Notes under the pieces: generated by a model
Databases searched by the model: none
Told to the model about the DNA's origin: nothing
What the model saw: the letters and a program-made list of their open reading frames with translations, nothing else
Program-made: the position numbers and the translations under genes
Part shown: positions 2,645-18,091 of the stretch, piece by piece
Numbering within the stretch: the stretch's first letter is position 1
How the letters are laid out: each line of letters begins with the position of its first letter
DNA from: Elusimicrobia bacterium RIFOXYD2_FULL_34_15
GTDB lineage: Bacteria; Elusimicrobiota; UBA8919
Direction: 5' to 3'
Length of the DNA: 53,179 bases
NCBI GenBank assembly: GCA_001800605.1
Contig: MGVS01000003.1
Location: forward strand, 4,920-58,098

Positions 2645-2722
2645 TTTAATGAAAGTAAGAAGTCCACTTTAACTTCAAGTAATCAAATATGGAAAATTAA
2701 AAAGAAGAGGAGGTGAGAAAAA

Positions 2723-3253
2723 ATGAAAAAGATTTTAGGTTTACTGTTGATTTTAGCAGTAATGACAGGAGTAGGGTATGCAGCGACAAACCCGGATAAC
2801 ATTGTATTGACAGTTACCATTGGCAACATAGCATATGGTGTCAGTATATCATCTGCAAGTAATGACATTGGTACTGTGAATTTTAGTGCGCAACAAGCTT
2901 TCTATATTGGTACGCTGTCAAACGATGGCAATACCATGGAAGATTGGCAAGTCAGAGGTACTAATGCATCAGGACCCAGCGCAGGTTCATGGTCACTTGT
3001 TAGCACCATACCAGTTGGCAACGAGTACGCACTTATGTTAGGAACATCTGTAGCAGGTGCAGTCGCTCCAACATGGACAGATGCTGTTGATGCAAGTAGC
3101 GTTACCACAGCACAAGCTGACGCTAGTGCATGGGGCCAGAGGGCAGATGTTGCATATACCCGTGGATTGTGGTCAAGGATCACGATGCCGAGTTCTTCAT
3201 CGCAGAGTGGTCAATTTTCATTCACAGTCAGTATGTGGGGTACAGCTCCGTAA
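2723..3253 (+). CDS. Small secreted protein, paralog 1
   Basis: A 176-residue protein with a textbook signal peptide (MKKILGLLLILAVM, then GYAA cleavage near residue 20). The mature part is rich in Ser, Thr, Gly and Ala with alternating hydrophobic residues, suggesting a beta-sandwich domain; it has one conserved Trp-rich C-terminus (SMWGTAP). The start is fixed by AGGAGGTGAG seven bases upstream. A paralog of exactly the same length lies at 7442, with about 150 of 176 residues identical by my own count. The consensus promoter, excellent ribosome site and small secreted size suggest an abundant surface or extracellular subunit. I do not recognise the family; pilus-like or S-layer-like subunits are possibilities only. 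Confidence 0.8.
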   Translation: MKKILGLLLILAVMTGVGYAATNPDNIVLTVTIGNIAYGVSISSASNDIGTVNFSAQQAFYIGTLSNDGNTMEDWQVRGTNASGPSAGSWSLVSTIPVGNEYALMLGTSVAGAVAPTWTDAVDASSVTTAQADASAWGQRADVAYTRGLWSRITMPSSSSQSGQFSFTVSMWGTAP

Positions 3254-3426: not shown

Positions 3427-3489
3427 AGAGTGTCCAGGTTGAAATCCATCAAAAGTGGTTTTGCCTAGTCCCGTGAAAAAACGGGACCT

Positions 3490-3542
3490 GGTTGAACAAC
3501 TAAAAAAATTCTTCCCCCGAAGAATAATCGTCCGGCTCAACC
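3490..3542 (-). repeat. Palindromic element, core in inverse orientation
   Basis: The core hairpin is TTCTTCCCCCGAAGAA (3509-3524), the reverse complement of the core in the other copies. Outer arms GGTTGA (3490-3495) and TCAACC (3537-3542) pair. The arm sequence differs from that of every other copy. Confidence 0.65.
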
Positions 3543-3627
3543 GGCGATGGAGGACTTCCGTGCCCGCTCTATTTATTTATAGCTTGGTTAAGGTTATTTC
3601 TTTAATCATTAATATATATGATTATTT

Positions 3628-3661
3628 TACCTCTGTTATGTTAACAGGGGTATTTTATTTT
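3628..3661 (+). terminator. Probable intrinsic terminator
   Basis: TACCTCTGTT (3628-3637) pairs with AACAGGGGTA (3643-3652) over about ten base pairs with one T-G pair and a short loop; a T-rich tail (TTTTATTTTAT) follows. It would stop transcripts from the small secreted protein gene before the palindrome cluster. Confidence 0.5.
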
Positions 3662-3692
3662 ATAAACTCTTTAGTTTTGTTATTAGTTATTG

Positions 3693-3756
3693 GGGCGGGT
3701 ATGGATGTCCTTCAATCATTCTTCGGGGGAAGATTATTGACGACTCATATCCGCCC
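3693..3756 (+). repeat. Palindromic element copy (core TTCTTCGGGGGAAGA)
   Basis: Outer arms GGGCGGGTAT and ATATCCGCCC pair, an inner CAATCA/TTATTG segment pairs imperfectly, and the central core is TTCTTCGGGGGAAGA. Total about 64 bases. Confidence 0.7.
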
Positions 3757-3765
3757 TTTAACTTC

Positions 3766-3814
3766 AGTACAGAGTATACAGAATACAGTAAACAGTTATA
3801 AATATATAAATTCA
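3766..3814 (+). repeat. Heptamer array, AGTATAC type
   Basis: Seven consecutive heptamers: AGTACAG, AGTATAC, AGAATAC, AGTAAAC, AGTTATA, AATATAT, AAATTCA. The same heptamer type is found inside hisF (31655-31703) and before lepB (32421-32510). Confidence 0.65.
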
Positions 3815-3818
3815 GATG

Positions 3819-3891
3819 TGGAAAGAGACGGGCGGGCACGGAAGTTTTCTTCGGGGGAAGATATTTCTGTTTGCCTGCCCATTTGTTTCCA
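3819..3891 (+). repeat. Palindromic element copy, identical to 4050-4122
   Basis: Nested arms TGGAAA/TTTCCA and GGGCGGGCA/TGCCTGCCC surround the core TTCTTCGGGGGAAGA. The 73-base unit is repeated exactly at 4050-4122, 231 bases downstream, indicating recent duplication. Confidence 0.75.
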
Positions 3892-3907
3892 TATGAATGA
3901 TAAGGCA

Positions 3908-3968
3908 GATTATAGGTTAGAAGTTAAAGGTTTAAAGTTATTGGTTATAAGTTATCAGTCATTAGTTA
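3908..3968 (+). repeat. Heptamer array, AAGTTAT type
   Basis: Consecutive heptamers TATAGGT, TAGAAGT, TAAAGGT, TTAAAGT, TATTGGT, TATAAGT, TATCAGT, CATTAGT keep a strict period of seven with a constant GT at positions six and seven. Confidence 0.65.
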
Positions 3969-3971
3969 ATG

Positions 3972-4038
3972 GGGCGGGTGCGGTAGTTCTCCAAAATATT
4001 CTTCGGGGGAAGATGCTTTGGAATACTGTCACTCGCCC
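3972..4038 (+). repeat. Palindromic element copy with its own arm sequence
   Basis: Outer arms GGGCGGGT and ACTCGCCC, a middle CCAAA/TTTGG pair and the shared core. The arms differ from those of neighbouring copies, but pairing is largely kept. Confidence 0.65.
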
Positions 4039-4049
4039 TGTTTTATCTG

Positions 4050-4122
4050 TGGAAAGAGACGGGCGGGCACGGAAGTTTTCTTCGGGGGAAGATATTTCTG
4101 TTTGCCTGCCCATTTGTTTCCA
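4050..4122 (+). repeat. Palindromic element copy, identical to 3819-3891
   Basis: Exact second copy of the 73-base element, again with TGGAAA/TTTCCA and GGGCGGGCA/TGCCTGCCC arms around the core. Confidence 0.75.
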
Positions 4123-4132
4123 CAAAGTTTCT

Positions 4133-4191
4133 GGGCTGGCATGGATGTCCTCAATTTCTTCGGGGGAAGATACGAGTGCTCCTGCCAGCCC
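4133..4191 (+). repeat. Palindromic element copy, identical to 7166-7224
   Basis: Arms GGGCTGGCA/TGCCAGCCC and core TTCTTCGGGGGAAGA. The same 59 bases occur at 7166-7224, before the second small secreted protein. Confidence 0.75.
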
Positions 4192-4224
4192 TGCAATAAG
4201 TGAAAGAGCAGGTTATAGGTTATT

Positions 4225-4317
4225 GGGGCGGGCATGGATGTCCTTCAAAATATTCTTCGGGGGAAGATATTTGTTGACTCCATCCCGCCTCCGCAAAAGC
4301 TTCGGCGGGCAGGCCCG
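4225..4317 (+). repeat. Palindromic element copy plus GC-rich secondary hairpin
   Basis: Arms GGCGGGCATG / CATCCCGCC with the shared core (to about 4289) are followed by a CCGCC/GGCGG hairpin with loop around AAAGCTT (to about 4317). The same composite occurs at 7274-7367. Confidence 0.7.
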
Positions 4318-4370
4318 CTATCTTAGTAATTCGGCGGAAAGGTCGATGAAAGATAGTTATTTAAAATAAT

Positions 4371-7061
4371 ATGAACAGAATCTTTAACCAGATATTAATT
4401 TCAATAAAAACCATAGAAAAATGGTTAAAGAGCGCTATGTCCCTGTTTATAATAGTCGCTTTCTATCTTATATCGGTTATTAATCCTTTGAATGCAACAA
4501 ATCCGGATCACATTGAATTAAGGTGTTATCTTAATATCGGACCACCGAGTTCTATACTTAATCTTAAAGCGGTTTCCGGAAGTGTTGAGGGTACTATAGA
4601 CGTAAGTTTCAGAGTGCCTGCAGAAGAGCCATCACCTAACTTCGGTGAACTTAGAATACTTTGGCCATATCATGTTAGATATTCCACAAATTCGCTTGCA
4701 GATTTGGCAAATAATACAACTTCATGGTGGAATCAGGCAACTGAATATCCGCAATTCTGGACAGAACAAGGAGATAGAGGTAATGACGGAGAAAATGGTC
4801 CGGGTGATGAATACATGTATGAACGTATAGAAACCGGTTTGTCATTTGATTCTGAATATTACGGAAGATATGTATATATGGCAATTAGGGCTGAGGATGA
4901 GGGTCGTTTATTATCTACTTCATTCAATATATCATCAGCTACTGTAAAATTCGATACTGTATCTCCAACTGCAATTTCTGATTTAACAGCACTGACGGGA
5001 ACTTACGAAGGAGAAGTTTTATTACAATGGACAGCGCCTGGTGATGATGGAATTACAGGTAGTTTAAACGGTTCATTTAATATAAAGTATGCTCAGCAGA
5101 TAATAACCAATTCAAACTATGATTTAATCGGTCAGACAATAACCGTAACAGCAGCTAATATCTCCCCGCTTTCTCAACAACAATTGCTGGTATCAGGATT
5201 GACACCTGGTGTAACTTACTGGTTTGCAATTAAAGCAAAAGATGATGTAAATAATATTTCAATTTGGAATTCTACTTCAGATGTTGCGACCGTTAATACA
5301 AAGGCATTCTGTAGAGCTGGATTTGATAATATTTCGCCTGCTGCGGTTACGCTGACGGTTGGTAATATCGGATTTAATGACGTAGAACTTAAATGGAATG
5401 CTCCGACTGAAGATGTTGGCAGACCTGCTAATCTTACAAACGGCATATATGATATAAGATTCTCTTCATTTGGTTCTATACCTTCTGCTGTTGCCTGGGA
5501 TTCAATACCTTCTTATAATAGACGTTCAATTTCGACCTCTACTATCGTAGGTTTGGCCGAGTCGTACATAGTTACAGGCCTTGCAGACAGCACAACATGG
5601 TGGTTCTGCATGCTGACAGGTGACGAGATACCTAACTGGTCCAACTATTCAAATTCACCAAACGCGTATACAATAGACCAGACACCGCCTGCTGTTATAT
5701 CTAATTTTGCTGCAAAACCAATTTATCAGCCGGTAGGCAGAGAAGTACAGCTTAATTGGACAAATCCTACTGATACTGACTACAAAGGTACATTAATTGT
5801 TTATTCGTATGATGCTCCAACTACATTTAAACCGGTAAGAGGTTATAATTACGCAGTTGGTGTTACAACCGGCGATGCCACCGTATTGCTAACGGGTTCA
5901 GCAACATATTATGTACACTCCAATTTGATACCTAATTTGAAATATTATTATACTGCATTCACATATGATGGCATACCTAATTATTCAGTTTCAGTTACCA
6001 CAAATGTGATTGCCCCGCCGTCTGCTGATCAGACACCGCCGAGAGAACCGAGAAATATAAGGATTTCGTATTCATCTGATAGAGACCAAATGACTATCAC
6101 ATGGGATGCAGTAACTAAATCAACAGATAATAATACTGCAAATGACCTTTCTTATTATACTTTATATAGATCCTCTACGATCGGCGGATCAGCAACAACA
6201 TGGAAACTACCGATTAATGTAACTTCTACCACAACCTACACGTACGGAAGAGAATACTATTATTGGTTGACTACACATGACACTTCTCTTAATTGTTCAA
6301 AACCATCAGCAAGGGTTGAATCATCAATAGATTCTTATATTTCATTCTTCGATTCCATAAGTCCAAAAACATGTATTTCAATGCCATTAAATATATGCAA
6401 TATTCTTTATAAAGAAACCAATTCATTTGGTGATGACATTTATTTTGATGTTGTTAATCTTACATCCGAAGAATCGGGAAAAGTAATTAAATCATTTACA
6501 TTCGTTCCTAAGAAAGTGAAAACAGAAGAAGTTGTAACCGGTTTACTATTCTCAAGGGCACTAGCAGACGTAAAGATATCATATGCAACAACTGACGGAG
6601 TTGTGCAAGCGCCTGCTTTAGCCGCATCTCAGGCAAAAGATAATTTAGCATTGTTCTGGTTTAACGGTGTTGAATGGGTGAAAATCGGCGGAGAAGTTGA
6701 CACTAATAATCAGACAGTATCTATAAAAACAAAGAAAGGCGGCAAATATCAAATAAGACAATCAGTAAGAGCTATTAAGTTTGCATTAACAAAAGTGTAT
6801 CCAAGGATATTCACACCTAACGGTGACGGATGGAACGATGTTACAAACTTCATATATGAAGGTAACGATAACGGAATTAACGGCAAGGTATTTGATATAA
6901 ACGGTGCCTTTGTGTCTGATATGACACGTGGTGATACTGAAGATTCACTCAAGTGGGATGGTAAAGATTCATCCGGCAAGACGGTATCTTCGGGAATCTA
7001 CATCTATCAGATAGAAGCTGACGGAAAAGTATTTAACGGTACTGTGGTGGTGGCGAAATGA
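4371..7061 (+). CDS. Secreted fibronectin type III repeat protein with FlgD-like C-terminal domain
   Basis: An 896-residue protein with an N-terminal membrane/signal segment (about residues 20-42) preceded by a basic, amphipathic extension. From residue 70 to 650 there are about five fibronectin type III-like domains, marked by W-x-A-P, GDDG and 'Y-x-F-x-x-K-A-x-D' strands. The C-terminus (about residues 810-896) begins VYPRIFTPNGDGWND and continues as a FlgD/CHU_C-type Ig fold ending GKVFNGTVVVAK. Such domains end many secreted proteins of type IX-like pathways. The same last 30 residues recur almost unchanged in the mini-protein at 11063. Its first residues (MNRIFNQIL) resemble those of the protein at 8020. 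No Shine-Dalgarno sequence precedes the ATG, so the start is uncertain. Probably exported to the surface, binding partner unknown. Confidence 0.82.
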   Translation: MNRIFNQILISIKTIEKWLKSAMSLFIIVAFYLISVINPLNATNPDHIELRCYLNIGPPSSILNLKAVSGSVEGTIDVSFRVPAEEPSPNFGELRILWPYHVRYSTNSLADLANNTTSWWNQATEYPQFWTEQGDRGNDGENGPGDEYMYERIETGLSFDSEYYGRYVYMAIRAEDEGRLLSTSFNISSATVKFDTVSPTAISDLTALTGTYEGEVLLQWTAPGDDGITGSLNGSFNIKYAQQIITNSNYDLIGQTITVTAANISPLSQQQLLVSGLTPGVTYWFAIKAKDDVNNISIWNSTSDVATVNTKAFCRAGFDNISPAAVTLTVGNIGFNDVELKWNAPTEDVGRPANLTNGIYDIRFSSFGSIPSAVAWDSIPSYNRRSISTSTIVGLAESYIVTGLADSTTWWFCMLTGDEIPNWSNYSNSPNAYTIDQTPPAVISNFAAKPIYQPVGREVQLNWTNPTDTDYKGTLIVYSYDAPTTFKPVRGYNYAVGVTTGDATVLLTGSATYYVHSNLIPNLKYYYTAFTYDGIPNYSVSVTTNVIAPPSADQTPPREPRNIRISYSSDRDQMTITWDAVTKSTDNNTANDLSYYTLYRSSTIGGSATTWKLPINVTSTTTYTYGREYYYWLTTHDTSLNCSKPSARVESSIDSYISFFDSISPKTCISMPLNICNILYKETNSFGDDIYFDVVNLTSEESGKVIKSFTFVPKKVKTEEVVTGLLFSRALADVKISYATTDGVVQAPALAASQAKDNLALFWFNGVEWVKIGGEVDTNNQTVSIKTKKGGKYQIRQSVRAIKFALTKVYPRIFTPNGDGWNDVTNFIYEGNDNGINGKVFDINGAFVSDMTRGDTEDSLKWDGKDSSGKTVSSGIYIYQIEADGKVFNGTVVVAK

Positions 7062-7112
7062 TGAATATATATAAACCATATTTAATAAATATCTATAATG
7101 CGGTTCTTAAAC

Positions 7113-7165
7113 CGGTAGTTAGATTTACCTGTTATCGGTTATCGGTTATTGATTATAAGTTATTT
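7113..7165 (+). repeat. Heptamer array, GGTTATC type
   Basis: Heptamers TGTTATC, GGTTATC, GGTTATT, GATTATA, AGTTATT lie directly before a palindromic element at 7166. Confidence 0.6.
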
Positions 7166-7224
7166 GGGCTGGCATGGATGTCCTCAATTTCTTCGGGGGA
7201 AGATACGAGTGCTCCTGCCAGCCC
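7166..7224 (+). repeat. Palindromic element copy, identical to 4133-4191
   Basis: Same 59 bases as the earlier copy: arms GGGCTGGCA/TGCCAGCCC around TTCTTCGGGGGAAGA. Confidence 0.75.
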
Positions 7225-7231
7225 CATAATA

Positions 7232-7274
7232 AACTGCAAGTTAAAAGTTATAAGTTATATGTTAAAAGTTATAG
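7232..7274 (+). repeat. Heptamer array, AAGTTAT type
   Basis: Heptamers AAGTTAA, AAGTTAT, AAGTTAT, ATGTTAA, AAGTTAT run up to the next palindrome at 7274. Confidence 0.65.
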
Positions 7275-7367
7275 GGGCGGGCATGGATGTCCTTCAATCA
7301 TTCTTCGGGGGAAGATCATTGTTGACACCGGCCCGCCTCCGCAAAAGCTTCGGCGGGCAGGCCCGCC
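7274..7367 (+). repeat. Palindromic element copy plus GC-rich secondary hairpin
   Basis: GGGGCGGGCATGG left arm, shared core TTCTTCGGGGGAAGA, right arm GGCCCGCC, then the CCGCC/GGCGG secondary hairpin seen also at 4289-4317. It ends about 70 bases before the next gene start. Confidence 0.7.
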
Positions 7368-7441
7368 ATGTATCAGAACGGTTCATGTCTCGCTTTGGAA
7401 TTGAATACAAAAAAAATAATAAAAGAGGGGGGGTGAGTAAA

Positions 7442-7972
7442 ATGAAAAAGATTTTAGGTCTATTGTTGATTTTAGCAGTAATGACAGGAATAGGTTATGC
7501 AGCGACAAATCCGGATAATATTGTATTGACAGTTACCATTGGCAACATAGCATATGGTGTCAGCATATCATCTGCTAGTAATTACTTCGGTACAGTAAAT
7601 CTTGGGGCATCTTCCAATTTTTACATTGGTACGCTATCCAATGATGGTAATACTATGGAGGATTGGCAAGTCCAGGGTACCAATGCATCTGGACCTAATT
7701 CGGGAACGTGGTCACTTGTTAGTACCATACCAGTTGGCAACGAGTATGCGCTTATGTTAGGAACTTCAGTAGCAGGTGCATCTATGCCGAATTGGACGGA
7801 TGGAGTAACTGCAAGCAGCGTTACTACTTCACAAGCTGCTGCTAATGCATGGGGCCAGAAAGCGGATGTTGGGTATACACGTGGATTGTGGTCAAGGATT
7901 ACAATGCCTACTACTTCATCTCAGAGCGGTGTATTTTCATTCACAGTCAGTATTTGGGGAACAGCTCCATAA
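7442..7972 (+). CDS. Small secreted protein, paralog 2
   Basis: A 176-residue protein, same length as the copy at 2723 and differing at about 26 positions by my count. The signal peptide and C-terminal third are nearly unchanged; differences cluster at residues 48-59 (DI to YF and nearby) and 113-137. I chose 7442 as the start, not the in-frame start at 7058, because the signal peptide MKKILGLLLILAVM begins there, AGAGGGGGGGTGAG lies just upstream, and the earlier codons translate palindromic repeats. Unlike paralog 1 it has no evident promoter directly upstream, so it may be read with the fibronectin gene before it. Function unknown; probably a surface subunit variant. Confidence 0.8.
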   Translation: MKKILGLLLILAVMTGIGYAATNPDNIVLTVTIGNIAYGVSISSASNYFGTVNLGASSNFYIGTLSNDGNTMEDWQVQGTNASGPNSGTWSLVSTIPVGNEYALMLGTSVAGASMPNWTDGVTASSVTTSQAAANAWGQKADVGYTRGLWSRITMPTTSSQSGVFSFTVSIWGTAP

Positions 7973-8019: not shown

Positions 8020-9603
8020 ATGAACAGAACTTTAAACCAGATATTAAAAACTTTAAAAACCATCAGAGAATGGACTGGTAATGTTCTGTCTCTAGCAATC
8101 CTTGTGGTATGTTTCTCAATTTTCAATGCAAATTATATTTATTCAGCATTTGATGAATTGAATGTCGGAGCGAGACCACAAGGAATGGCAGGAGCGTTTA
8201 CAGCTGTTTCGGATGATGTGAATGCTCTTTTCTACAATCCGGCAGGGATATCATTATTAAAGAAATCAGAATTCACATCAAATTATGGACGGCTCTTTAT
8301 GGGATTGGATGACGGTTCATCGCTTGGTTCGTCGTTTGTTGGTTTTGCGCATCCTACAGAAAAATACGGAGCAATGGGATTTGCATGGTACAATCTCTCA
8401 TTATCCGGTTTCTATGATGAAACTGTGTTATCGTTAGCATATTCTTATAATATCTTCAATAGATTATCAATGGGAGTTAGTGTAAAAGATCTTATGAGAA
8501 AATTTGGCAGTGATGATTATACAAAGACAGCTATTGACTCTAACGGCAACACCCGGGTTGACATAGAAGGAGTTTCGGGAGATCCTGTCTTTGAAAAGAG
8601 CAGCAGAACAAATTCAATAAGCGGCGACTTGGGATTACTTTACATGTATTCAAATACTTTGACTTTTGGATTTTCTGCAAAGAATGTTACATCGCCTGAT
8701 ATAGGGCTTGTAAATACGGAAAAATTGCCCATATCATATCGCTTAGGTGTTTCCTATAATAAAACAAATTATCTATTATCATTGGAAGCATTTAATAAGA
8801 ATAGTGATTTAAATATTTTAACTGGTGCAGAAAAATGGTTTACCGACAAGAATATTGGAATAAGAGGCGGATTATTAATCGGCAGCCGTAGATTAGGAAC
8901 TATAACAGTTGGTTCAAGTATGAAGTTTGATAATTTATCTTTTGATTATGCATTTGTTTGGCCTTTAACAGGAATAAAAGATACTTACGGTACACACAAA
9001 ATTTCACTTAATATAAAATTTGGAAAAGGTAGTATCTCTGATAAAGCAAAAAGAGATGAGATAAATAGGCTTCAACAGATGGAAGAACAGCGGAAAGCAA
9101 TCGTTGCAGCAGAAAAATTACAGAAAGAAGCTGACATAATTAAAAGAGAAACAGCCGCAAGATTAGCAGAAGCAAAAAGAAGAGAACTGGAAATGGAAAA
9201 TATTCAGAAGGCATCAGCCGTCCAGGAAGCAGAATTAGTAAAAACGATGAAGAAAAGCGAGACAGAAAAAGAGTTTAAAGATTTAATGTTAAATTATCAG
9301 AAGAGGGTTTCTGACGGTGCGGAGATTCCGGAAAGATTAACACTGCTTGACAAAATCATAAAAAAATATGATAATAACGGTATTAATATTTCTGATGCCA
9401 AAAAAGAAAGGGATTCTGTTATCAAAATACAGCAGACATACAGGAAAGATTTTAATTATTCTTTTAGTTATTACATGAAATTAAAATCAAGAGGCGCAAA
9501 GAAAGAAGAGAAGAGAGCAATAATCTCAAAAATAATAGAAAAATATAAAGGGAAAGGAATAGATATTTCAGAAGCCGAAAAAGAATTTGAGGAAGTAAAA
9601 TGA
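8020..9603 (+). CDS. PorV/PorQ-like outer-membrane barrel protein with C-terminal coiled coil
   Basis: A 527-residue protein. After an N-terminal hydrophobic segment (about residues 25-45) comes a PorV/PorQ-type beta-barrel domain (about 45-330) with the hallmark GMAGAFTAVSDDVNA and FYNPAGIS. Proteins of this kind sit in the outer membrane and in several phyla work with type IX secretion or gliding machinery. Residues 340-527 are highly charged and predicted coiled coil (long runs of E, K, R, Q), an unusual addition that could reach the periplasm and contact other parts. The histidine kinase gene overlaps its stop by four bases (ATGA), so the two are translationally coupled. The N-terminal MNRTLNQIL resembles the fibronectin protein at 4371. 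Confidence 0.82.
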   Translation: MNRTLNQILKTLKTIREWTGNVLSLAILVVCFSIFNANYIYSAFDELNVGARPQGMAGAFTAVSDDVNALFYNPAGISLLKKSEFTSNYGRLFMGLDDGSSLGSSFVGFAHPTEKYGAMGFAWYNLSLSGFYDETVLSLAYSYNIFNRLSMGVSVKDLMRKFGSDDYTKTAIDSNGNTRVDIEGVSGDPVFEKSSRTNSISGDLGLLYMYSNTLTFGFSAKNVTSPDIGLVNTEKLPISYRLGVSYNKTNYLLSLEAFNKNSDLNILTGAEKWFTDKNIGIRGGLLIGSRRLGTITVGSSMKFDNLSFDYAFVWPLTGIKDTYGTHKISLNIKFGKGSISDKAKRDEINRLQQMEEQRKAIVAAEKLQKEADIIKRETAARLAEAKRRELEMENIQKASAVQEAELVKTMKKSETEKEFKDLMLNYQKRVSDGAEIPERLTLLDKIIKKYDNNGINISDAKKERDSVIKIQQTYRKDFNYSFSYYMKLKSRGAKKEEKRAIISKIIEKYKGKGIDISEAEKEFEEVK

Positions 9604-11066
9604 CAATTAAAAACCGGTTAATAATTTCATTTGCTTTAATGATTGCGATAGTTGTTTTTATCGCTTCTATACTATTTTTTCAAGGTAAAATACAAAGGGA
9701 TTACCTTATGGATTCTGTGCAGAACTATTCTCTAATGGCCGGTATAAGAGAAATACAATATTATCTCGAAAAATCAGGTTCTGCTTGTGATTTTTATCTT
9801 GTATTGGGAGATTCTTCTGAAAAAAGCAAATTTAATGAATTTTCAGGTTTATTGCAAGAGAAAATTAACGATTATTCCTTGCAGCTTAATAATTTTAAAA
9901 TCAGTAAAGCAGAATATATCGAATTTTCTGAAATTGCAGATGCGTGTAATATATTGATTTCGAGATGGCAGAATGCAATAAATATGTATTCGGAAGGTAA
10001 AAGGGAACGTGCTATCAGCATGATAGAAAATAATGTTCTATCATATTATGATAAAATTAAAGAGAGAATAAAAAGCGAATATGAAAAAAAAATTAATGCA
10101 TATCAGATTGCGGAAAAAGAATCTTTAAGGATGGAAAAAATTAATTTTATAATATCAGTTGGTTTATCTGTACTAGCTATTATTTTAGCAATGATGCTCT
10201 CCGTGTTTTTATTTAGAACTATAACAAGACCTTTGACAAAGCTTAAAGAAGGAGCTGAAAAGATTGGCAACGGCAGTTTTTCACAGAGAATAGAGATTTC
10301 CGGCCACAATGAATTAACGGTGCTTGCAGAAGCATTTAATAAGATGGCTGAAAATCTAAAGAGATCGGAGACACAGTTGATTCAGATGGATAGAATGGCT
10401 TCCCTTGGCCAGCTTGCCGGCGGTATTGCACATGAACTTAATAATCCTTTAACCGGCGTTTTAGGCCAGACAGAGATGCTTCTTGAAAAACTTCCGCCTC
10501 AGGATCCAATTAGAGAAACACTTGAAAAAATCGGGAAAGCAGCAGAAAGATGCAGAAAGATTACTAAGGGATTGTTGGATTTTTCAAGGCAGAAAGATTA
10601 TACTTTTGAGTATATTGATGTTCCTAAATTATTGGACAATTCTTTGGATATATGTTCGTCAGATTTAATTGCATCTAAAATAAACGTTGTAAAAAAATAC
10701 GGAAAAGAAGTTCCAAAAGCATATATTTCACAACCTCATATCCAGCAGGTATTTTTAAATATAATTACAAATGCAATCCATGCTATGAAACACGGTGGAA
10801 CGCTTACGATTGTTACAGATGTTGTAATAAATAATTATGTTACGGTAGCTTTTAAGGATACTGGAGACGGAATATCAAAAGTAAATCTTGAAAAAATGTT
10901 CACTCCATTTTTTACAACTAAAGAACCTGGTAAAGGGACCGGTTTGGGGTTGGTTATTTCGTACGGAATTATTCAGAAACATAACGGTAAAATACTGGTA
11001 TCAAGCGATGGCGATAAAAAAGGCGCTACATTTACTTTAAGATTGCCTGCTGGGGGGATAAAATGA
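9600..11066 (+). CDS. Membrane sensor histidine kinase (HAMP, HisKA, HATPase)
   Basis: A 488-residue kinase. Membrane segments lie at about residues 7-27 and 178-202 and enclose a helical periplasmic sensor region of about 150 residues (four-helix-bundle-like). A HAMP linker follows (about 203-255), then a dimerisation/phosphoacceptor domain with [13 protein letters not shown], phosphoacceptor His278, and an ATPase domain with N-box [11 protein letters not shown]1 box DTGDGIS and GTGLGL. No receiver is fused and no response regulator gene is next to it. The tight overlap with the PorV-like gene before and the FlgD-like mini-gene after suggests it senses the envelope or the surface apparatus. 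Its natural partner could be the NtrC-like protein at 35647, but that is speculative. Confidence 0.9.
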
Positions 11067-11449
11067 AATATTTATCTTTTAATGTTTTTAAACATATATT
11101 TAAACTATTAACTTCAATCTTAATATGTCTAACGTTTTTGAATTTTTTATTTGCTGAAGGGTTTAAAATTGCGGAAGTAAAACCAAAAATAATAACACCT
11201 GCATCCAGTTCGGGAATAAATGATTATTTGATAATAAGTTATGATAATCCGAACGATTCTAATGTAAGCGGAAAGATTATTACATTAAACGGATATTTTG
11301 TTGCTGATATGCTAAATAATGATTTATCAGCAAAAATAACATGGAACGGGAAGGATGACAGTGGTAAAGTGGTTTCTTCCGGGATTTATATTTATCAGAT
11401 TGATGTTGAAGGTAAAGTTTTTAATGGGACGGTAGTAGTGGCTAAATAG
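11063..11449 (+). CDS. Mini-protein: membrane/signal segment plus FlgD-like C-terminal domain
   Basis: A 128-residue protein with a hydrophobic signal segment (about residues 10-32) followed almost only by a FlgD/CHU_C-like Ig domain. Its end, SGIYIYQIDVEGKVFNGTVVVAK-like (split here as SGIYIYQI and GKVFNGTVVVAK), is nearly identical to the last 30 residues of the 896-residue fibronectin protein. The start overlaps the kinase stop by four bases. It may be a free-standing copy of a sorting/anchoring domain, or a remnant of a larger secreted protein. The near identity implies recent copying or strong selection on this tail. Confidence 0.75.
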   Translation: MKYLSFNVFKHIFKLLTSILICLTFLNFLFAEGFKIAEVKPKIITPASSSGINDYLIISYDNPNDSNVSGKIITLNGYFVADMLNNDLSAKITWNGKDDSGKVVSSGIYIYQIDVEGKVFNGTVVVAK

Positions 11450-11507: not shown

Positions 11508-11562
11508 ATTGCGGGATAGTGGGATGGTGCGTTGACGGGATTGTGCGTTTGTGGATGGTTAT

Positions 11563-13407
11563 ATGAAAAATATAAAACTATTGTTATTACTTATAACTTT
11601 TAGTCTTTTACCTGCGGCGTTGTTTTCTGCATTTGATGATATTGCTCCCGGTGTAAGACCTGCGGCTATGGGTGGGGCATTTACGGCTCTTTCAGATGAT
11701 GCTAATGCAATATACTATAATCCGGCGGGTCTTTATCGTCTTCAAAATAATGAATTGATAGCATCGTACGGGAAACTTTATTGGGGGCTTACTGATGGTT
11801 CAAATATATCCAATTCGGATATATTGTATGTAAATCCATTTGGTAAATTTGGTACGGTAGGACTGGGAATATATTCACTTGCTCTTACCGGTTTATATAC
11901 AGAAAAAATAATTTTATTTTCGTATGGAATGAGAATTATACCTAAAGTAGGTGTTGGAATAACAATGAAATCGCTTTCTCATGTTTATGGTTCAGATGAA
12001 TATACTGAAAATGCTATTGACGATACGGGTAATGCTTCAGGACAACCGGACGAAGTGTTTTCAGCCGGTAAAAGCAAGTCTAAACTTTCATCGGATATCG
12101 GAATATTTTATAGGCCGGAATCAAGATATAATTTGGGTGTTGTAGTCCAAAATATAAATTCACCTGATGTAGGATTAGTGGAATCTGATAAAGTTGAAAA
12201 AACAGTAAGGGCAGGTTTTTCATATTCACCTAGGACTTCAAATTTATCTCTTGAAGTTATATCTAAAGCAAATGATACCGATTTTATTGCAGGTTTTGAG
12301 AGATTTTTCATGAAAAAAGTTTTTGCGTTAAGAGGTGCAATGGCTTTTGGCAGTAAAGAATTAAGAAAATTATCATTAGGATTTGGTGTAAGTAAAAGTA
12401 TATATAAAATTGATTATTCATTTATTTACCCGCTTGCCGGAATTAATAATACTTACGGTACACATAAATTAGCATTTTCTATTTCATTCGGGCCTGTTCC
12501 TAATATAGAGCAATTAACTATGGAGTTTCTGCCAGAACAGGAAGAATTGACAGGTGAAGGAGTTGCTATCACCGCAAAAACTGTAACTGAAGATGATAAA
12601 AGAGCTTCTGATCTATTAGTAAAAGTATCACAGGATTTATACAGAAAAGGATTCTATCAAAAAGCGCTAGAAAATATTGTTAAAGCAATTGAATATAATC
12701 CAAAGAATCAGGGAGCTCAATTATTAAAAAAGAAAATGACTTCAGTAGCGTCCATGTTTCCTGAACTGACCGATAATGAAAAAATATCAAAAATAATCAG
12801 AAAAGGTTTGACTGCATATTTTGATAATAGTCCTGTTCTTGCGGTAAATGCGATCAGGTATTCTACGGAACTTGCTCCAGAGAACAATTCATTAACACAA
12901 TTGTTCGAATTGATAACCAAGGAATTTCCGGGTTATGCAGGGCAGGAAGAATCTATATCCGGCTTGACGTTGGTAAGCAGGAAACTGCAACAGGCACTTG
13001 AGAATATTTACAGCGGAAAATATGTTCAAGCGATTACAGAATGTAAAACCGTTTTGGAGTTGGAAGAAGATAATATTGTCGCGCTTATGCGGCTTGGTTC
13101 TGCATACTGGGCAATGGGTGATTTTGATAAAGCTAAATCAGTATGGCGGGATGCATTAAGATACGACCCGAACAATGTTCAAATAAGAGAGTTTCTTAAA
13201 GGAGAAACCACGGTTCCAAAAGTCGAAAAACTTGGAGAAAAGCCATTAGTTAGAAAATATGCTGTTCAACGAGGCGATACTCCTCAGAAAATATCAGAAA
13301 AATTTTATGGTAATAAAACCAGTTGGTCCAAAATCTACGAAGCAAATAAAGATATATTACCAAATAGATGGACAATATCGTATGGTCAAGAGTTGAATAT
13401 ACCGTAA
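11563..13407 (+). CDS. PorV/PorQ-like protein fused to TPR repeats and a LysM domain
   Basis: A 614-residue protein. The signal peptide (MKNIKLLLLLITF, cleavage after FSA) sets the start at the ATG 11563; an upstream in-frame GTG at 11551 lies in low-complexity DNA. Residues about 25-330 form a PorV/PorQ-type barrel with AMGGAFTALSDD and YYNPAGLY, clearly related to the protein at 8020. Residues about 345-550 carry TPR repeats (for example GFYQKALENIVKAIEYNP and GDFDKAKSVWRDALRYDP). Residues about 560-614 form a LysM domain (YAVQRGDTPQKISEKFYGN). Thus one chain spans outer membrane, protein interaction module and peptidoglycan binding. It directly precedes the motor genes, which suggests it links the motor to the envelope. 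Confidence 0.85.
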   Translation: MKNIKLLLLLITFSLLPAALFSAFDDIAPGVRPAAMGGAFTALSDDANAIYYNPAGLYRLQNNELIASYGKLYWGLTDGSNISNSDILYVNPFGKFGTVGLGIYSLALTGLYTEKIILFSYGMRIIPKVGVGITMKSLSHVYGSDEYTENAIDDTGNASGQPDEVFSAGKSKSKLSSDIGIFYRPESRYNLGVVVQNINSPDVGLVESDKVEKTVRAGFSYSPRTSNLSLEVISKANDTDFIAGFERFFMKKVFALRGAMAFGSKELRKLSLGFGVSKSIYKIDYSFIYPLAGINNTYGTHKLAFSISFGPVPNIEQLTMEFLPEQEELTGEGVAITAKTVTEDDKRASDLLVKVSQDLYRKGFYQKALENIVKAIEYNPKNQGAQLLKKKMTSVASMFPELTDNEKISKIIRKGLTAYFDNSPVLAVNAIRYSTELAPENNSLTQLFELITKEFPGYAGQEESISGLTLVSRKLQQALENIYSGKYVQAITECKTVLELEEDNIVALMRLGSAYWAMGDFDKAKSVWRDALRYDPNNVQIREFLKGETTVPKVEKLGEKPLVRKYAVQRGDTPQKISEKFYGNKTSWSKIYEANKDILPNRWTISYGQELNIP

Positions 13408-13449: not shown

Positions 13450-13707
13450 TGATTAAAACGATTAAAAACAAGATTACACAGATTTAAACAAAGGTGTCAT
13501 GCTGAACGGAGTGCCTGCCCGCCTACGGTTAAGTGGCGGGAAGCATCTGTAGTTAGGTATTTTAAGGCGAGATTCTTTAGAATGACCCCGATAAGTCTGG
13601 GGCAGGCAGCAAAAAAGGTGTTTTTTAATGAAACATTTTAAAAAAATAATTATAGGTGTTTTATTTATTTTTAATCCCGATAAATCGGGACAAGTTTTTT
13701 CATTTTT

Positions 13708-13810: not shown

Positions 13811-15397
13811 ATGAATAAAGTATATAGTCGTTATGGAATTATCATTGTTATGTGTTTTCTAACGGGGTTTAATTGTCTCTGTGCTATCGATAATATTGAT
13901 CGTGAAAAGCTAACTCTTGAAACCAATATAGAAAAAAGGGTTACTGATGCTTTGGCAAAACTAGTGAATCCCCAAGATTTTATTGTAATGGTGAATATTG
14001 AACCGATAATCGAAGAAGCCAATAGGACAAATACAACTCCTCAGATAGAACAGTTGCAAGCCCCGACTATAAAAAAGAAAGATTATATTTTACCAGGAAT
14101 ACCTGCAAAAAAAGGTTTGGGTGATGAAGAAAAAACGTCTCAATCTCCCGTACAGGTTGTTGTATCGCCTAATGAGAGTAATATAGAGGTGATGAAAAAC
14201 TTTATCAAAAAAATAACTGTTACGGTAAAATTTGACAAAAATGTTCCGGATAATATTATTAACGAAGCAAAAACAATTGTTTCGGGATTGGTTAATTTTA
14301 ACGTAGAACGGGGAGACATTTTGGCTGTTGAAAAAACAGAGTTTTATAAAAAACAAATTCCCTGGTATCAAATATTTACAAATTTTCCGTCATTAATATG
14401 GTTTTTAGGTATTGTATTATTTGCGTTTTTCCTGTTTGGCCCGCTAAATGTATTTTTCCAGCACCTGCTTAGAACACTTAATGTAAAATCCGCACAAACT
14501 TCAGATAACAATCAAGCAATGGCTCAACCCCAGATAAATGTACATACCAGTGGTGGAGGTGGTGGGCCTGTTACTATGTCACTTGAAGAAGGTAGATCAA
14601 AAAAACCGACACTTTTTTCTTTTATTAATGACGGTAATCTCTGGAATCTTGCATATTTATTAAAAACTGAATCACCCGATAGAACAGCTCTTGTTTTAAG
14701 CTATATGAGAAATGATTGGGCGTCTTTTGTATTATCACAGTTGCCTATAGATCTTCAATCAAAGGTAGCTGTTGAACTTGCCAGTGTAAAACAACTTGAG
14801 CCCGATGATGTCGAGATAATGGAATTAGAGTTGAAGAAAAAAATAGATTATTTAATCGGCGGTTCTGCTCAGATAATAAAAATATGTGAAAGCTCAGATA
14901 AAAAAACTTGTGAAAACATAATTTCTTCTTTATCTGTATCAAATCCCGAACTTGCGGAACAGGTTAGAACCCAGCTTCTGAATATAGATGATTTATATTT
15001 TGTTGATTCATCCGGGTTAAGAATCCTTTTCAGAGAAATACCTCTTCCGTCTTGGGCGATAGGATTACGAGTGGCTAAGGATGTAACTCGCGAAAAAATA
15101 TTAAAAACGCTTCCTACGGGTGCTGCTGAGATGTTAAAACAAGAAATTGAGCTGAATCAGAATGTTTCACAAGCTATGATAGACGAAGAAGAAAAAAGAA
15201 TAATCACAATAATGCGTAAATTAAGAAACGAGGGTAGGATTATTATTGCAAAAGGTGAAAAGGTAGAAGAAACTTCAGAGAATACAGTTAAAACAGAAGA
15301 AAAAGAAGAAACTGTTTCTGGCAACGAAACAAATGAATCACGCGAGGAACGTTTAGCAAGAATAAAAGATAGATTAAAAAAAGAAAGAGGAGGCTAA
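13811..15397 (+). CDS. FliF(C-terminal half)-FliG fusion: flagellar-type rotor protein
   Basis: From the chosen start the protein has 528 residues. A signal/membrane segment (about 8-24) is followed by a periplasmic region resembling the C-terminal part of FliF: NIEKRVTDALAKLVNP near residue 40 and ITVTVKFDKNVPD with VERGDILAV near 140-175. A transmembrane helix lies at about 191-213. After a linker, residues 273-500 match FliG middle and C-terminal domains: ESPDRTALVLSYM stands for the usual EHPQ motif, and TREKILKTLPTGAAEML aligns with the torque-helix region (LREK...). The tail is charged. FliF and FliG are normally two proteins; FliG binds the end of FliF. MotA and two MotB-like genes follow at once. 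The frame extends back to 13628 and also has an ATG at 13784, but upstream codons are repeat-derived. Confidence 0.78.
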   Translation: MNKVYSRYGIIIVMCFLTGFNCLCAIDNIDREKLTLETNIEKRVTDALAKLVNPQDFIVMVNIEPIIEEANRTNTTPQIEQLQAPTIKKKDYILPGIPAKKGLGDEEKTSQSPVQVVVSPNESNIEVMKNFIKKITVTVKFDKNVPDNIINEAKTIVSGLVNFNVERGDILAVEKTEFYKKQIPWYQIFTNFPSLIWFLGIVLFAFFLFGPLNVFFQHLLRTLNVKSAQTSDNNQAMAQPQINVHTSGGGGGPVTMSLEEGRSKKPTLFSFINDGNLWNLAYLLKTESPDRTALVLSYMRNDWASFVLSQLPIDLQSKVAVELASVKQLEPDDVEIMELELKKKIDYLIGGSAQIIKICESSDKKTCENIISSLSVSNPELAEQVRTQLLNIDDLYFVDSSGLRILFREIPLPSWAIGLRVAKDVTREKILKTLPTGAAEMLKQEIELNQNVSQAMIDEEEKRIITIMRKLRNEGRIIIAKGEKVEETSENTVKTEEKEETVSGNETNESREERLARIKDRLKKERGG

Positions 15398-15399
15398 TA

Positions 15400-15545
15400 A
15401 GGCAAGTTAAAATAGAGACAAGTTAAAAGTTTCCGCCATTGAGTCGTAGGCGGATCCGCCAAAGTATTAGTGGCGGAAAAAATTGACGGATTTTATAAAT
15501 TCAGTTAATAAAATATTACCAAAACTTTTAATTTTAACTTGACTT
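15400..15545 (+). repeat. Inverted heptamer array enclosing a CCGCC palindrome
   Basis: The left arm (GGCAAGTTAAAATAG, AAGTTAAAAGT) is complementary to the right arm (ACTTTTAATTTTAACTTG, 15525-15542). Between them lies the palindrome TTCCGCCATT...TAGTGGCGGAA (15431-15478). The whole could fold into one long hairpin just before motA. Confidence 0.65.
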
Positions 15546-15552
15546 TTTTTTT

Positions 15553-16314
15553 ATGGATATTTTAACTATACTTGGTTTAGGAATTGGATTTGGCGCTGTT
15601 TATATAGTCATGCAACAGGGCGGAATATTAAGTTTACTTTTTGATAAATATGCAGCAATTCTTGTTTTTGGAGGAACACTTGGTGCTACAATGATTTCTG
15701 TTCCTTTCACACAAATGAAAACTGCGTTAAGGGCGTCTTTTTTCACAATATTTCCTGCATCATTAAGACAAAAACCGGAATTGATAATAAATACATTGAT
15801 TGGTCTTTGTGAAAAGTCAAAACGTTCAGGTATAGATTCCTTGCAGGAAGATGTAGTAAGAATTGAAGACAGATTTTTAAAAGAAGGGATACAACTACTA
15901 ATTGACGGTTTATCGCCTGATTTAATAAGAGAAAATCTTGAGACTGAAATTATTTTCATACGTAAAAGACATATGGCTAATGCATCTGTTTTTAGGACAA
16001 TGGGAACATATGCCCCAATATTCGGACTACTGGGAACCCTAATTGGTGTTGTTCAGGTATTAAAAAATCTTGCCGATCCAAAGACAATGGGCGCCTCAAT
16101 GGCTATTGCAGTGACAACGACATTTTATGGTATTTTTTCCACAAACTTTATCTTCCTTCCGTTAGGTTCAAAATTAAATGCACTTTCCGATGCTGAAATT
16201 CTCACGAAAGAAGTAATGATTGAAGGTATTTTGTCCATACAAGCCGGCGATATACCGTTAATTCTAAGAAGAAAATTAGAAGCATATCTCGCATACAGAA
16301 TGCGTAAAAAATAA
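15553..16314 (+). CDS. motA: Stator protein MotA
   Basis: A 253-residue MotA/TolQ/ExbB-family protein of typical MotA length. Four membrane segments are visible: about 2-20, 33-52, 150-172 and 185-205, with a large cytoplasmic loop between the second and third. The conserved TYAPIFGLLGTLIGVV contains the proline that in MotA lines the ion path, and FGGTLGATMISVPF matches the second helix. MotA forms a pentamer around two MotB chains and drives the rotor with ion flow. Here the rotor partner would be the FliG part encoded directly upstream. The start ATG has no Shine-Dalgarno sequence and follows a T-rich run. Confidence 0.9.
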   Translation: MDILTILGLGIGFGAVYIVMQQGGILSLLFDKYAAILVFGGTLGATMISVPFTQMKTALRASFFTIFPASLRQKPELIINTLIGLCEKSKRSGIDSLQEDVVRIEDRFLKEGIQLLIDGLSPDLIRENLETEIIFIRKRHMANASVFRTMGTYAPIFGLLGTLIGVVQVLKNLADPKTMGASMAIAVTTTFYGIFSTNFIFLPLGSKLNALSDAEILTKEVMIEGILSIQAGDIPLILRRKLEAYLAYRMRKK

Positions 16315-16330
16315 ATAAATCAGGGAGAAA

Positions 16331-16418
16331 GTGAGATGGGTAAATAGGTGGAAAGGAAAAACAAAAAGTTTTAAATCCTTATCTCTCTACCTCTCTACCT
16401 TTTTACCTTTCTATCCTG
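16331..16418 (+). repeat. Inverted heptamer array before motB
   Basis: The left arm (GTGAGATGGGTAAATAGGTG, 16331-16350 and on) mirrors the right arm (CTCTACCTTTTTACCTTTC near 16394-16413). Arms keep an approximate seven-base period and can pair as GGTAAA with TTTACC. Confidence 0.6.
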
Positions 16419-16431
16419 TAAGTTGTTCATT

Positions 16432-17091
16432 ATGGGTAAAAAAAAAAATCGTAGAATACTATATAACACTGAACAACGTGCTGATTCTCCTATATGGCTT
16501 ACAATATATGCTGATTTAATGACTAATCTGATGCTATTCTTCTTGATGCTTTGGGGATTAACTAAGGTATCTTTTGAAGCATATACGGAAGCTACAAATT
16601 CCTTAAATAAAACAATTACTCAACAAGAAAGAAAATATGAAACAAAAAAGGTAATACCAGATGATAAATCAGGCGGTTATATCGGATATGAAGCGGTGTC
16701 AAAGACCAATACGGATGTACAAGGTATTAAACTTGTATTGGATTCTCCGATTTTATTTGATTTAGGTTCTTCAAAACTTAATGATGAAGCAAAAAGTCAG
16801 CTTGATGATATCATTGCATATCTTTATGACGTTGATTATAGGGCTGTAATAGAAGGTTATACAGATGACACACCTATAGGAAAAAACTTGGGGTTTACTT
16901 CGAACTGGGAACTATCACTTGATAGAGCAAGAAATGTGGTAAAATATTTTGAGGAGCAGGGAATAGATCCAAAACGGCTTGTAATTGCAGGTTACGGTGA
17001 ATTTCATCCTATCTTTCCAAATGATACCGAAGAACATAAAAAACAAAATAGAAGGATTGAAATAAACATTATTTACAAAGAAAGTATCTGA
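16432..17091 (+). CDS. motB: Stator protein MotB with OmpA domain
   Basis: A 219-residue protein from the ATG at 16432 (an in-frame TTG lies nine bases earlier). A basic N-terminus is followed by one membrane helix containing IYADLMTNLMLFFLML; Asp28 sits where MotB carries the proton-accepting Asp. After a plug/linker region, residues about 100-215 form an OmpA-type peptidoglycan-binding domain with GYTDDTP, LSLDRARNV and QNRRIEI. MotB anchors the stator to the wall and opens the ion channel when bound. This copy looks fully functional. A second MotB-like gene follows after a repeat-rich gap. Confidence 0.88.
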   Translation: MGKKKNRRILYNTEQRADSPIWLTIYADLMTNLMLFFLMLWGLTKVSFEAYTEATNSLNKTITQQERKYETKKVIPDDKSGGYIGYEAVSKTNTDVQGIKLVLDSPILFDLGSSKLNDEAKSQLDDIIAYLYDVDYRAVIEGYTDDTPIGKNLGFTSNWELSLDRARNVVKYFEEQGIDPKRLVIAGYGEFHPIFPNDTEEHKKQNRRIEINIIYKESI

Positions 17092-17147
17092 AGCTTTCTT
17101 AGGTATTATACTATGTCTCGATGTTATTGCCTACCTACTCCGCCGGC

Positions 17148-17286
17148 TAGCGGATTAGTAGCGGGAAGCAATCTCTTAATTACGGGATTGCCACGAGCCA
17201 ATAAATTGGCTCTCGCAATGACAGCTATGCTATTATCTGAGTAATCATCTCTTGTAATAAATATCCGCCACTGATTCTATGGCGGA
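17148..17286 (+). repeat. Palindromic intergenic repeats between the two motB genes
   Basis: The stretch contains an imperfect GC-rich palindrome (CTCCGCCGGCTAGCGGA...), a stretch running from GGGAAGCAATCTC to CTCGCAATGACA that resembles widespread bacterial intergenic repeats, and a TCCGCC/GGCGGA hairpin at 17264-17286. No gene is evident. Confidence 0.55.
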
Positions 17287-17311
17287 TAAACAATCGAGGA
17301 TTGTTTAAAAT

Positions 17312-18091
17312 ATGGCTAAAGGTAAATTTTTTTCATTCGGAAGACGATTTGGCGAATCATCAAGGATGGACCCAAATTTATGGGTTGTTTCTTACGGAAA
17401 TACCATGACATTGCTTATGATTTTCTTTCTTATACTTTATTCTAATAGTTATAATTTGAAGCAAAAAAGCATTGAAGCCCAGAAGACTGAAGATCAGTTA
17501 TTGGTAAAAAAACTTGAAAAATTCGGCAGTTCAGCAATAACAGGCGATAAAATCAAAGTAACATTTTCTCAGGACATAATATTCCAGAGCGCAAGTCCAA
17601 CTTTATCAAAAGATTTTGATAATATACTAATTGAGGTTTCTGATTATTTGAAAAAAAGTTCTGGAACAGTAATAATATCAGGACATGCAGATGCTACACC
17701 CTTAAAAGGCGGTAAATATAAGGATAATTGGTTTTTATCCGCAGAGAGGGGTTGGAACGTAGCCCAGGAACTGATAAAAAATGGAATTGATCCCAATAGA
17801 TTACAAATTAGAGGCTATGGAGAGTTTAATCCCGTAGCGGATAATAGCACTGAAGAAGGACGCGGTAAAAATAGAAGAATAGAAATGACTATAATGAAAG
17901 TGCAAACAGAAGAACCAAAGAGATATATATATTACAAAGCGTCCGGTCTTGAAAATATTAATGAGTTGGCTAAAAAATATTTAGGTGATGAAAAGTTTTC
18001 AGAAGTAATCAAAGGGCTGAATCCCGGTAAAATTGATGCAGATGGCAAAATTCTAAAAGATGCTGAAATCTTAATTCCATATAACCCTTAA
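17312..18091 (+). CDS. Second MotB-like protein lacking the channel Asp, with C-terminal LysM-like tail
   Basis: A 259-residue MotB homolog. The single membrane helix reads VVSYGNTMTLLMIFFLIL; Asn30 (codon AAT at 17399) replaces the proton-carrying Asp of MotB. Residues about 85-200 are an OmpA-type peptidoglycan-binding domain with SGHADATP, LSAERGWNV and KNRRIEM. The last 60 residues (ASGLENINELAKKYLGD to ILIPYNP) look like a LysM-type wall-binding module, absent from the first MotB. Because MotB works as a dimer, this chain could pair with the Asp-bearing copy to give a stator with one active and one silent subunit, or act as a structural anchor. This is inference from the missing residue. 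Confidence 0.85.
   Translation: MAKGKFFSFGRRFGESSRMDPNLWVVSYGNTMTLLMIFFLILYSNSYNLKQKSIEAQKTEDQLLVKKLEKFGSSAITGDKIKVTFSQDIIFQSASPTLSKDFDNILIEVSDYLKKSSGTVIISGHADATPLKGGKYKDNWFLSAERGWNVAQELIKNGIDPNRLQIRGYGEFNPVADNSTEEGRGKNRRIEMTIMKVQTEEPKRYIYYKASGLENINELAKKYLGDEKFSEVIKGLNPGKIDADGKILKDAEILIPYNP

Follow-up and report, generated by a model that had tools for sequence, protein, structure and literature searches.

A FliF-FliG fusion and its stator genes

The 53,179-nucleotide stretch analysed here (the window) comes from contig MGVS01000003.1 of Elusimicrobia bacterium RIFOXYD2_FULL_34_15, a member of the Elusimicrobiota whose 2.47 Mb genome is 97% complete and distributed over 119 contigs. The window encodes what is very probably a flagellum-free rotary motor, consisting of a rotor protein in which parts of FliF and FliG are joined in a single chain, the stator subunit MotA and two MotB proteins, MotB1 and MotB2 (Table 1).

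The open reading frame (ORF) of the fusion is open from position 13628, and a start near 13811 is backed by the sequences of relatives. From its N-terminus the chain contains a signal or transmembrane (TM) segment, the FliF RBM3-collar domain, a TM segment and the middle and C-terminal domains of FliG. Both FliG domains scored above the Pfam cut-offs, while the FliF half, being weak by sequence, was examined by structure. The AlphaFold2 (AF2) model, built from an alignment of 23 sequences of the phylum (mean predicted local distance difference test, pLDDT, 69; folded domains mostly 75-89), shows RBM3 topology (alpha-beta-beta-alpha-beta) in the periplasmic domain, where a long disordered insert separates strands 1 and 2; TM helices and then the helical FliG domains follow. 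In a Foldseek comparison of this model with the PDB, structures of the FliG middle and C-terminal domains ranked first (4fhr, 1lkv), and FliF S-ring/RBM3-collar structures came next (8z5v, 6sd1 and 8z4d, prob 1.00), the template modelling score by target being 0.61 for 8z5v and 0.55-0.58 for the other two. Moreover, a profile made from the periplasmic domain of the fusions matched residues 237-282 of E. coli FliF with 14.8 bits. As modelled, the chain is an RBM3/collar domain, a TM segment, FliG_M and FliG_C. The sequence-only reading of this stretch had described just such a chain, with a FliF-like end and membrane helix in its N-terminal half and the FliG middle and torque domains in its C-terminal half, and Pfam, PDB profiles, AF2, Foldseek and the E. 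coli FliF match all concur with it.

Of FliF, the fusion holds the RBM3/collar part only; RBM1 and RBM2 are missing, and so is the N-domain of FliG. In flagella, RBM1 and RBM2 house the export gate and the FliG N-domain binds the FliF tail, so that their absence fits a fused, export-free rotor.

With regard to the stator, MotA and the two MotBs follow the fusion as had been noted earlier, and Pfam confirms them, both MotBs carrying an OmpA and a MotB_plug domain. The window MotA matches solved flagellar MotA and PomA structures with up to 174 bits, and equivalents of Pro173 and Pro222 occur in all aligned copies. The ion-binding Asp (Asp32 of MotB) is held by every aligned MotB1 of the gene arrangements that we call modules A (that of the window) and B (see below). 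Besides the Asn of the window MotB2, this Asp is replaced by Ser (L076_2) and Gly (L066_1) in one MotB of other two-MotB loci; MotB may thus form mixed dimers in which only a single site is live.

In the FliG part of the window fusion, Arg stands at the K264 position and an acidic residue at 289, and R281 and R297 are lost. Position 264 is Lys or Arg in every aligned fusion, an acidic residue occupies 289 except in two copies, and 288 is Glu or Gln; R281 (now Gly or Ser) and R297 are lost in all of them, R281 being retained in the flagellar FliG of another genome of the phylum (G031, see below). The FliM-binding motif EHPQ is degenerate in all fusions (the Glu stays, the His is gone), as expected without FliM. 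On the stator side, the equivalent of MotA R90 is Lys or Arg in most aligned copies and that of E98 is Gln in most copies from modules A and B. In flagella, MotA R90 is reported to pair with FliG D289, and MotA E98 with FliG R281 (PMC7564593). The aligned residues suggest that one of these electrostatic pairs is largely kept and that the other is lost on both sides.

Table 1. Features of the motor locus and its upstream neighbours in the window
Feature	Position	Strand	Evidence and remarks
Rotor fusion FliF(RBM3-collar)-TM-FliG(M)-FliG(C), 528 aa	13811..15397	+	Pfam, NCBIfam, AF2, Foldseek, PDB profile search
Periplasmic RBM3-like ring-building domain of fusion	13901..14344	+	AF2 topology; Foldseek matches to FliF S-ring; YscJ_FliF_C E 0.0015
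Disordered collar insert in RBM3-like domain	about 14018-14191	+	Conserved LPGIP
TM segment and juxtamembrane helix, equivalent of FliF TM2	14387..14497	+	Hydrophobic helix, AF2 residues 193-229
FliG middle domain of fusion	14648..14848	+	PF14841 1.6e-13; FliM-binding motif EHPQ changed to ESPD
FliG C-terminal torque domain of fusion	14927..15247	+	PF01706 1.8e-23
Stator A subunit MotA	15553..16314	+	MotA_ExbB PF01618 2.4e-27; P173/P222 equivalents conserved; matches solved MotA
Stator B subunit MotB1	16423..17091	+	Proton-binding Asp present; OmpA peptidoglycan-binding domain
Second MotB (MotB2)	17312..18091	+	Asn at Asp32 position; OmpA domain
PorV-like outer-membrane barrel + TPR + LysM, directly upstream of rotor	11551..13407	+	AF2, Foldseek, conserved adjacency
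Small secreted protein, FlgD/CHU_C-type C-terminal domain	11063..11449	+	CHU_C 7.7e-5, FlgD_ig 0.003
Membrane histidine kinase (4HB sensor, HAMP, HisKA), module A	9600..11066	+	Pfam; conserved in L071, L076, L078
Second PorV/FadL-like outer-membrane protein, module A	8020..9603	+	Weak Pfam TraF_2/Toluene_X; conserved in L076, L078

Rotor modules, their distribution and the search for a flagellum

A FliG_C search of the whole genome returned three genes, all of them fusions, located in the window, on contig 86 and on contig 31. The motor locus first described is thus real but not the sole one. In module A (the window), a PorV-like barrel, a histidine kinase, a CHU_C protein and a PorV/TPR/LysM protein precede the fusion, MotA, MotB1 and MotB2. 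Module B (contig 86) comprises a predicted barrel of 640 aa, the fusion, MotA, MotB1, MotB2, a TPR protein and a giant ORF still open where the stretch ends. Module C (contig 31) comprises a giant ORF, an 1867-aa surface protein with a FlgD-like end, a PorV/TPR protein, a fusion bearing an additional C-terminal TPR domain and a coiled-coil-like protein of 1196 aa. The giant ORF upstream of rotor C has at least 9,425 codons (contig 31 bases 2-28279; L111, L014, L005); it is open at the start of the contig, and a small scaffold gap lies close to its end. No MotAB genes adjoin rotor C on contig 31. The genome's fourth MotAB pair is encoded on contig 70 (L013 6981-8411), next to pyruvate phosphate dikinase, and since MotA/MotB of this type stand downstream of the fusion in seven C loci (L058, L065, L066, L068, L073, L079, L081), the contig-70 stator is linked to rotor C. 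Contig 12 carries a separate gene of the MotA/TolQ/ExbB family.

Searches of the window's genome for the export gate FlhA, the FliF/YscJ N-domain (RBM1/RBM2, YscJ_FliF) and the C-ring proteins FliM/FliN (PF01052) gave 0 matches each, the control genomes being positive in all three cases, and a complete flagellar gene set elsewhere in the genome, the main caveat of the sequence-only reading, was thus not found. Flagellin, rod and hook genes were absent from the loci read, no genome-wide search having been aimed at them; because the export gate is missing, they can in practice be regarded as lacking. A division into 119 contigs could have hidden the remaining genes of an ordinary flagellum to which FliF and FliG belong. 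However, a genome of 3.8 Mb in one contig (G292) has the fusion and MotA and no FlhA, so the absence of FlhA is not due to assembly gaps, and within family f1 the other genomes with a fusion are without FlhA as well. Throughout the phylum, FlhA was detected in 3 of 295 genomes, namely G031 (L089/L090), G215 (L086/L087) and G246 (L091), which runs counter to the published lack of flagellar machinery in the phylum (PMC11257099). The flagellar cluster of G031 encodes FliF (518 aa) and FliG (355 aa) as two proteins of ordinary layout, together with rod/filament-like genes, and the weak match of this genome in the fusion survey (2e-18) is probably its flagellar FliG. In G215, MotAB and chemotaxis-like genes lie near FlhA, and the fusion genes are on a different contig. 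In view of the missing FlhA, FliF N-domain and FliM/FliN, the single-contig G292 and the normal FliF and FliG of the flagellated G031, an overlooked flagellum is the least probable of the alternatives that we weighed.

The fusion was found in 121 of the 295 genomes, representing 60 of 90 genera. All 121 also encode MotA (E<=1e-25), whereas MotA without a fusion occurs in 3 genomes and 171 lack both; the association has no exception on the fusion side (Fisher p 1e-80, a value inflated by shared ancestry, with most negatives coming from two small-genome families). Module A recurs within the window's family and module B across several families, and module C is the most widespread, with a PorV/TPR gene directly upstream of the fusion in nearly all loci that have sufficient flank. 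The gene order is thus conserved phylum-wide, in the form of three modules. The named relatives carrying the locus are Elusimicrobiota. Fusions also occur in metagenome-assembled genomes titled Clostridia, 'bacterium' or Sumerlaeota (L067, L068, L074, L080), one of which sits within an Elusimicrobia clade in the tree; these are probably mislabelled Elusimicrobiota, or they may reflect a real spread of the fusion outside the phylum.

In the FliG tree, copies of module B, and most of those of module C, group across families. The two flagellar sequences are placed among copies of module C, and the tree has several long branches, for which reason we make no claim as to whether the fusion FliG or the flagellar FliG is ancestral. 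That the modules are decaying remnants of a lost flagellum would agree with the scarcity of flagella in the phylum and with the three genomes that retain FlhA, but such decay is at variance with retention in two thirds of the genera, the strict co-occurrence with MotA, the conserved catalytic residues, the recurring outer-membrane partners and the split of B and C copies before that of the families. We therefore regard it as highly improbable.

Outer-membrane partners and the possible output of the motor

The product of the gene directly upstream of the window fusion was modelled as a beta barrel, TPR helices and LysM, in that order (AF2, mean pLDDT 80). Its best PDB matches, ranking above FadL, are to PorV of the type 9 translocon (6h3i_F, 8gl6_F) and include a complex with the bound C-terminal domain of RemA; a PorV-type shuttle, as in type 9 systems, is thus indicated by fold. 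Secreted proteins near the rotor have CHU_C/FlgD-type domains at their ends. The envelope role proposed earlier from the neighbouring genes is strengthened by this PorV, TPR and LysM fold.

Elsewhere in the window, a gene for a small secreted protein is duplicated (2693-3198 and 7412-7917, 80-85% identical), and GC-rich repeats (3678-4288, 7165-7337) give rise to spurious-looking ORFs at 3455-4369 and at the start of 7058-7972.

The PorV-like partner and the CHU_C/FlgD-type ends of neighbouring proteins would also suit a motor that powers secretion through an SprA-type (type 9-like) translocon, in place of GldL/GldM, and not movement. The genome has an SprA-like ORF of 1733 aa on contig 52 (L104 7305-12506), which TIGR04189 matches three times in collinear order, each time below the threshold. 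GldM gave 0 matches in the genome, with no control genome above the cut-off either, and the PorU-type C25 protease likewise gave 0 matches, the controls again giving none. However, SprA-like genes are present in 253 of the 295 genomes, about 136 of which are among the 174 that lack the fusion; this indicates that SprA is independent of the motor and makes this reading less likely. Besides, none of the fusion loci read adjoins SprA, and three motor modules per genome exceed the need of one translocon. We consider such a secretion drive unlikely, and SprA as the specific, sole partner of the motor was rejected on account of its wide occurrence in genomes without the fusion.

The LysM, TPR and OmpA peptidoglycan-binding domains around the motor, and the histidine kinase in module A, could alternatively belong to a machine that energises the envelope in the manner of Tol-Pal or ExbBD, with MotAB and the ring pulling on or turning periplasmic TPR/LysM proteins for envelope maintenance, uptake or cell-wall remodelling. 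Tol/Exb systems, however, require neither a FliG rotor nor a FliF ring, and the MotA found here is of the flagellar type, the contig 12 gene of the MotA/TolQ/ExbB family being separate from it. This appears somewhat less likely still than SprA-dependent secretion.

We propose instead, as the probable reading, a non-flagellar rotor that is turned by MotAB and transmits torque to PorV-type outer-membrane complexes, most likely moving giant surface proteins. Each chain of the fusion has one or two TM helices, and its gene is accompanied by MotA and by one or two MotBs bearing a peptidoglycan-binding anchor. Going by homology, about 30 copies of the fusion would assemble into an inner-membrane ring, and MotA pentamers, held in place by MotB, would conduct ions and push on the FliG C-domain so that the ring turns. 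With FliF and FliG in one chain, the FliG N-domain and the FliF tail would be unneeded, and without FliM/FliN there would be no switching through a CheY-type C-ring. To judge by the conserved neighbours, the periplasmic collar of module A may pass torque to the PorV-like barrel with its periplasmic TPR and LysM parts, and that of module B to another barrel and a TPR protein. Giant surface proteins would then be moved along the cell in a gliding-like motility, analogous to GldLM/SprB with another engine.

This proposal is favoured by the domains and folds of the proteins, the lack of FlhA, the FliF N-domain and FliM/FliN, the three paralogous loci, the spread of the fusion together with MotA, the pattern of kept and lost residues, the PorV fold of the adjacent protein, and the recurrence of outer-membrane partners and giant surface proteins in the modules. 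Three points weigh against it: the YscJ_FliF_C match of the fusion lies under the Pfam cut-off, the loss of R281 and R297 means that torque transfer would differ from that in E. coli, and no gliding has been reported, the isolates of the phylum being described as non-motile (PMC11257099). Gliding-like movement of surface adhesins, suggested by the conserved neighbours and the GldLM analogy, has in our estimate slightly less than an even chance, and our preference for movement over secretion as the motor's output is equally tentative.

Relation to known motors and meaning for the phylum

To our knowledge, the flagellar motor is known only within the export-dependent flagellum. With that motor the present one shares the RBM3/collar fold, the FliG middle and C-terminal domains, MotA/MotB with the proton Asp and the channel prolines, and the OmpA anchor. 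It differs in that FliF and FliG form one chain without RBM1/RBM2 and FliG-N, that the genome lacks FliM/FliN and the export gate, that EHPQ and R281/R297 are lost, and that it appears, from its neighbours, to be coupled to PorV-type barrels. The SpoIIIAG sporulation ring is likewise an RBM3-type ring without a flagellar export gate, but has neither FliG nor MotAB. Engineered fusions (Vibrio S-ring, 8z4d, PMC11481574) also hold FliF and FliG in one chain; those are full-length laboratory constructs, whereas the present fusion occurs in nature and is without RBM1/RBM2 and FliG-N.

GldLM of Bacteroidota, which in Flavobacterium powers both secretion and the helical motion of SprB, a giant adhesin, is likewise an ion-driven inner-membrane motor accompanied by outer-membrane proteins of the PorV type and by giant surface proteins (PMC8986121). 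GldL/GldM, however, work without a FliG rotor, whereas the engine here is MotAB with FliF-FliG and the GldM search gave 0 matches. The Agl-Glt gliding motor of Myxococcus is also of the stator type and non-flagellar, and it too has TPR and outer-membrane partners (PMC9120999); its AglRS belongs to the generic ion transporter clade of Tol/Exb (PMC12505986) and has no FliG/FliF ring, in contrast to the flagellar-type MotA found here.

No earlier description of this motor was found in the literature searched, a scope that excluded subscription journals and bioRxiv, and no paper dealing with FliG, MotA and Elusimicrobiota together turned up. A stator survey lists Agl, Exb, Tol and Zor as non-flagellar relatives of MotAB and mentions FliG solely as the flagellar rotor (PMC12505986), and a 2025 survey leaves rotor proteins without a filament unexplained (PMC12199754). 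A phylum-wide conserved case with a defined parts list makes this question testable.

A 2024 paper on Endomicrobia describes flagellar machinery as missing from all genomes of the phylum and every isolate as non-motile (PMC11257099); the motor described here is at odds with that picture. We see about even chances that it constitutes a new trans-envelope machine, in which up to three parallel FliG-MotAB engines per cell, working without an export apparatus and each connected to its own kind of outer-membrane complex, power surface movement in a phylum thought to be non-motile. The Elusimicrobiota are little studied and mostly uncultured, an amoeba co-culture having given an enrichment with free-living members (PMC9476967), and about two thirds of their genera carry this stripped-down motor. 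It indicates that the rotor-stator engine is separable from type III export and that a natural minimal rotor can be one protein, which is relevant to the question of how evolution put the flagellum together or took it apart, and it suggests that a rotary engine can drive things besides swimming.

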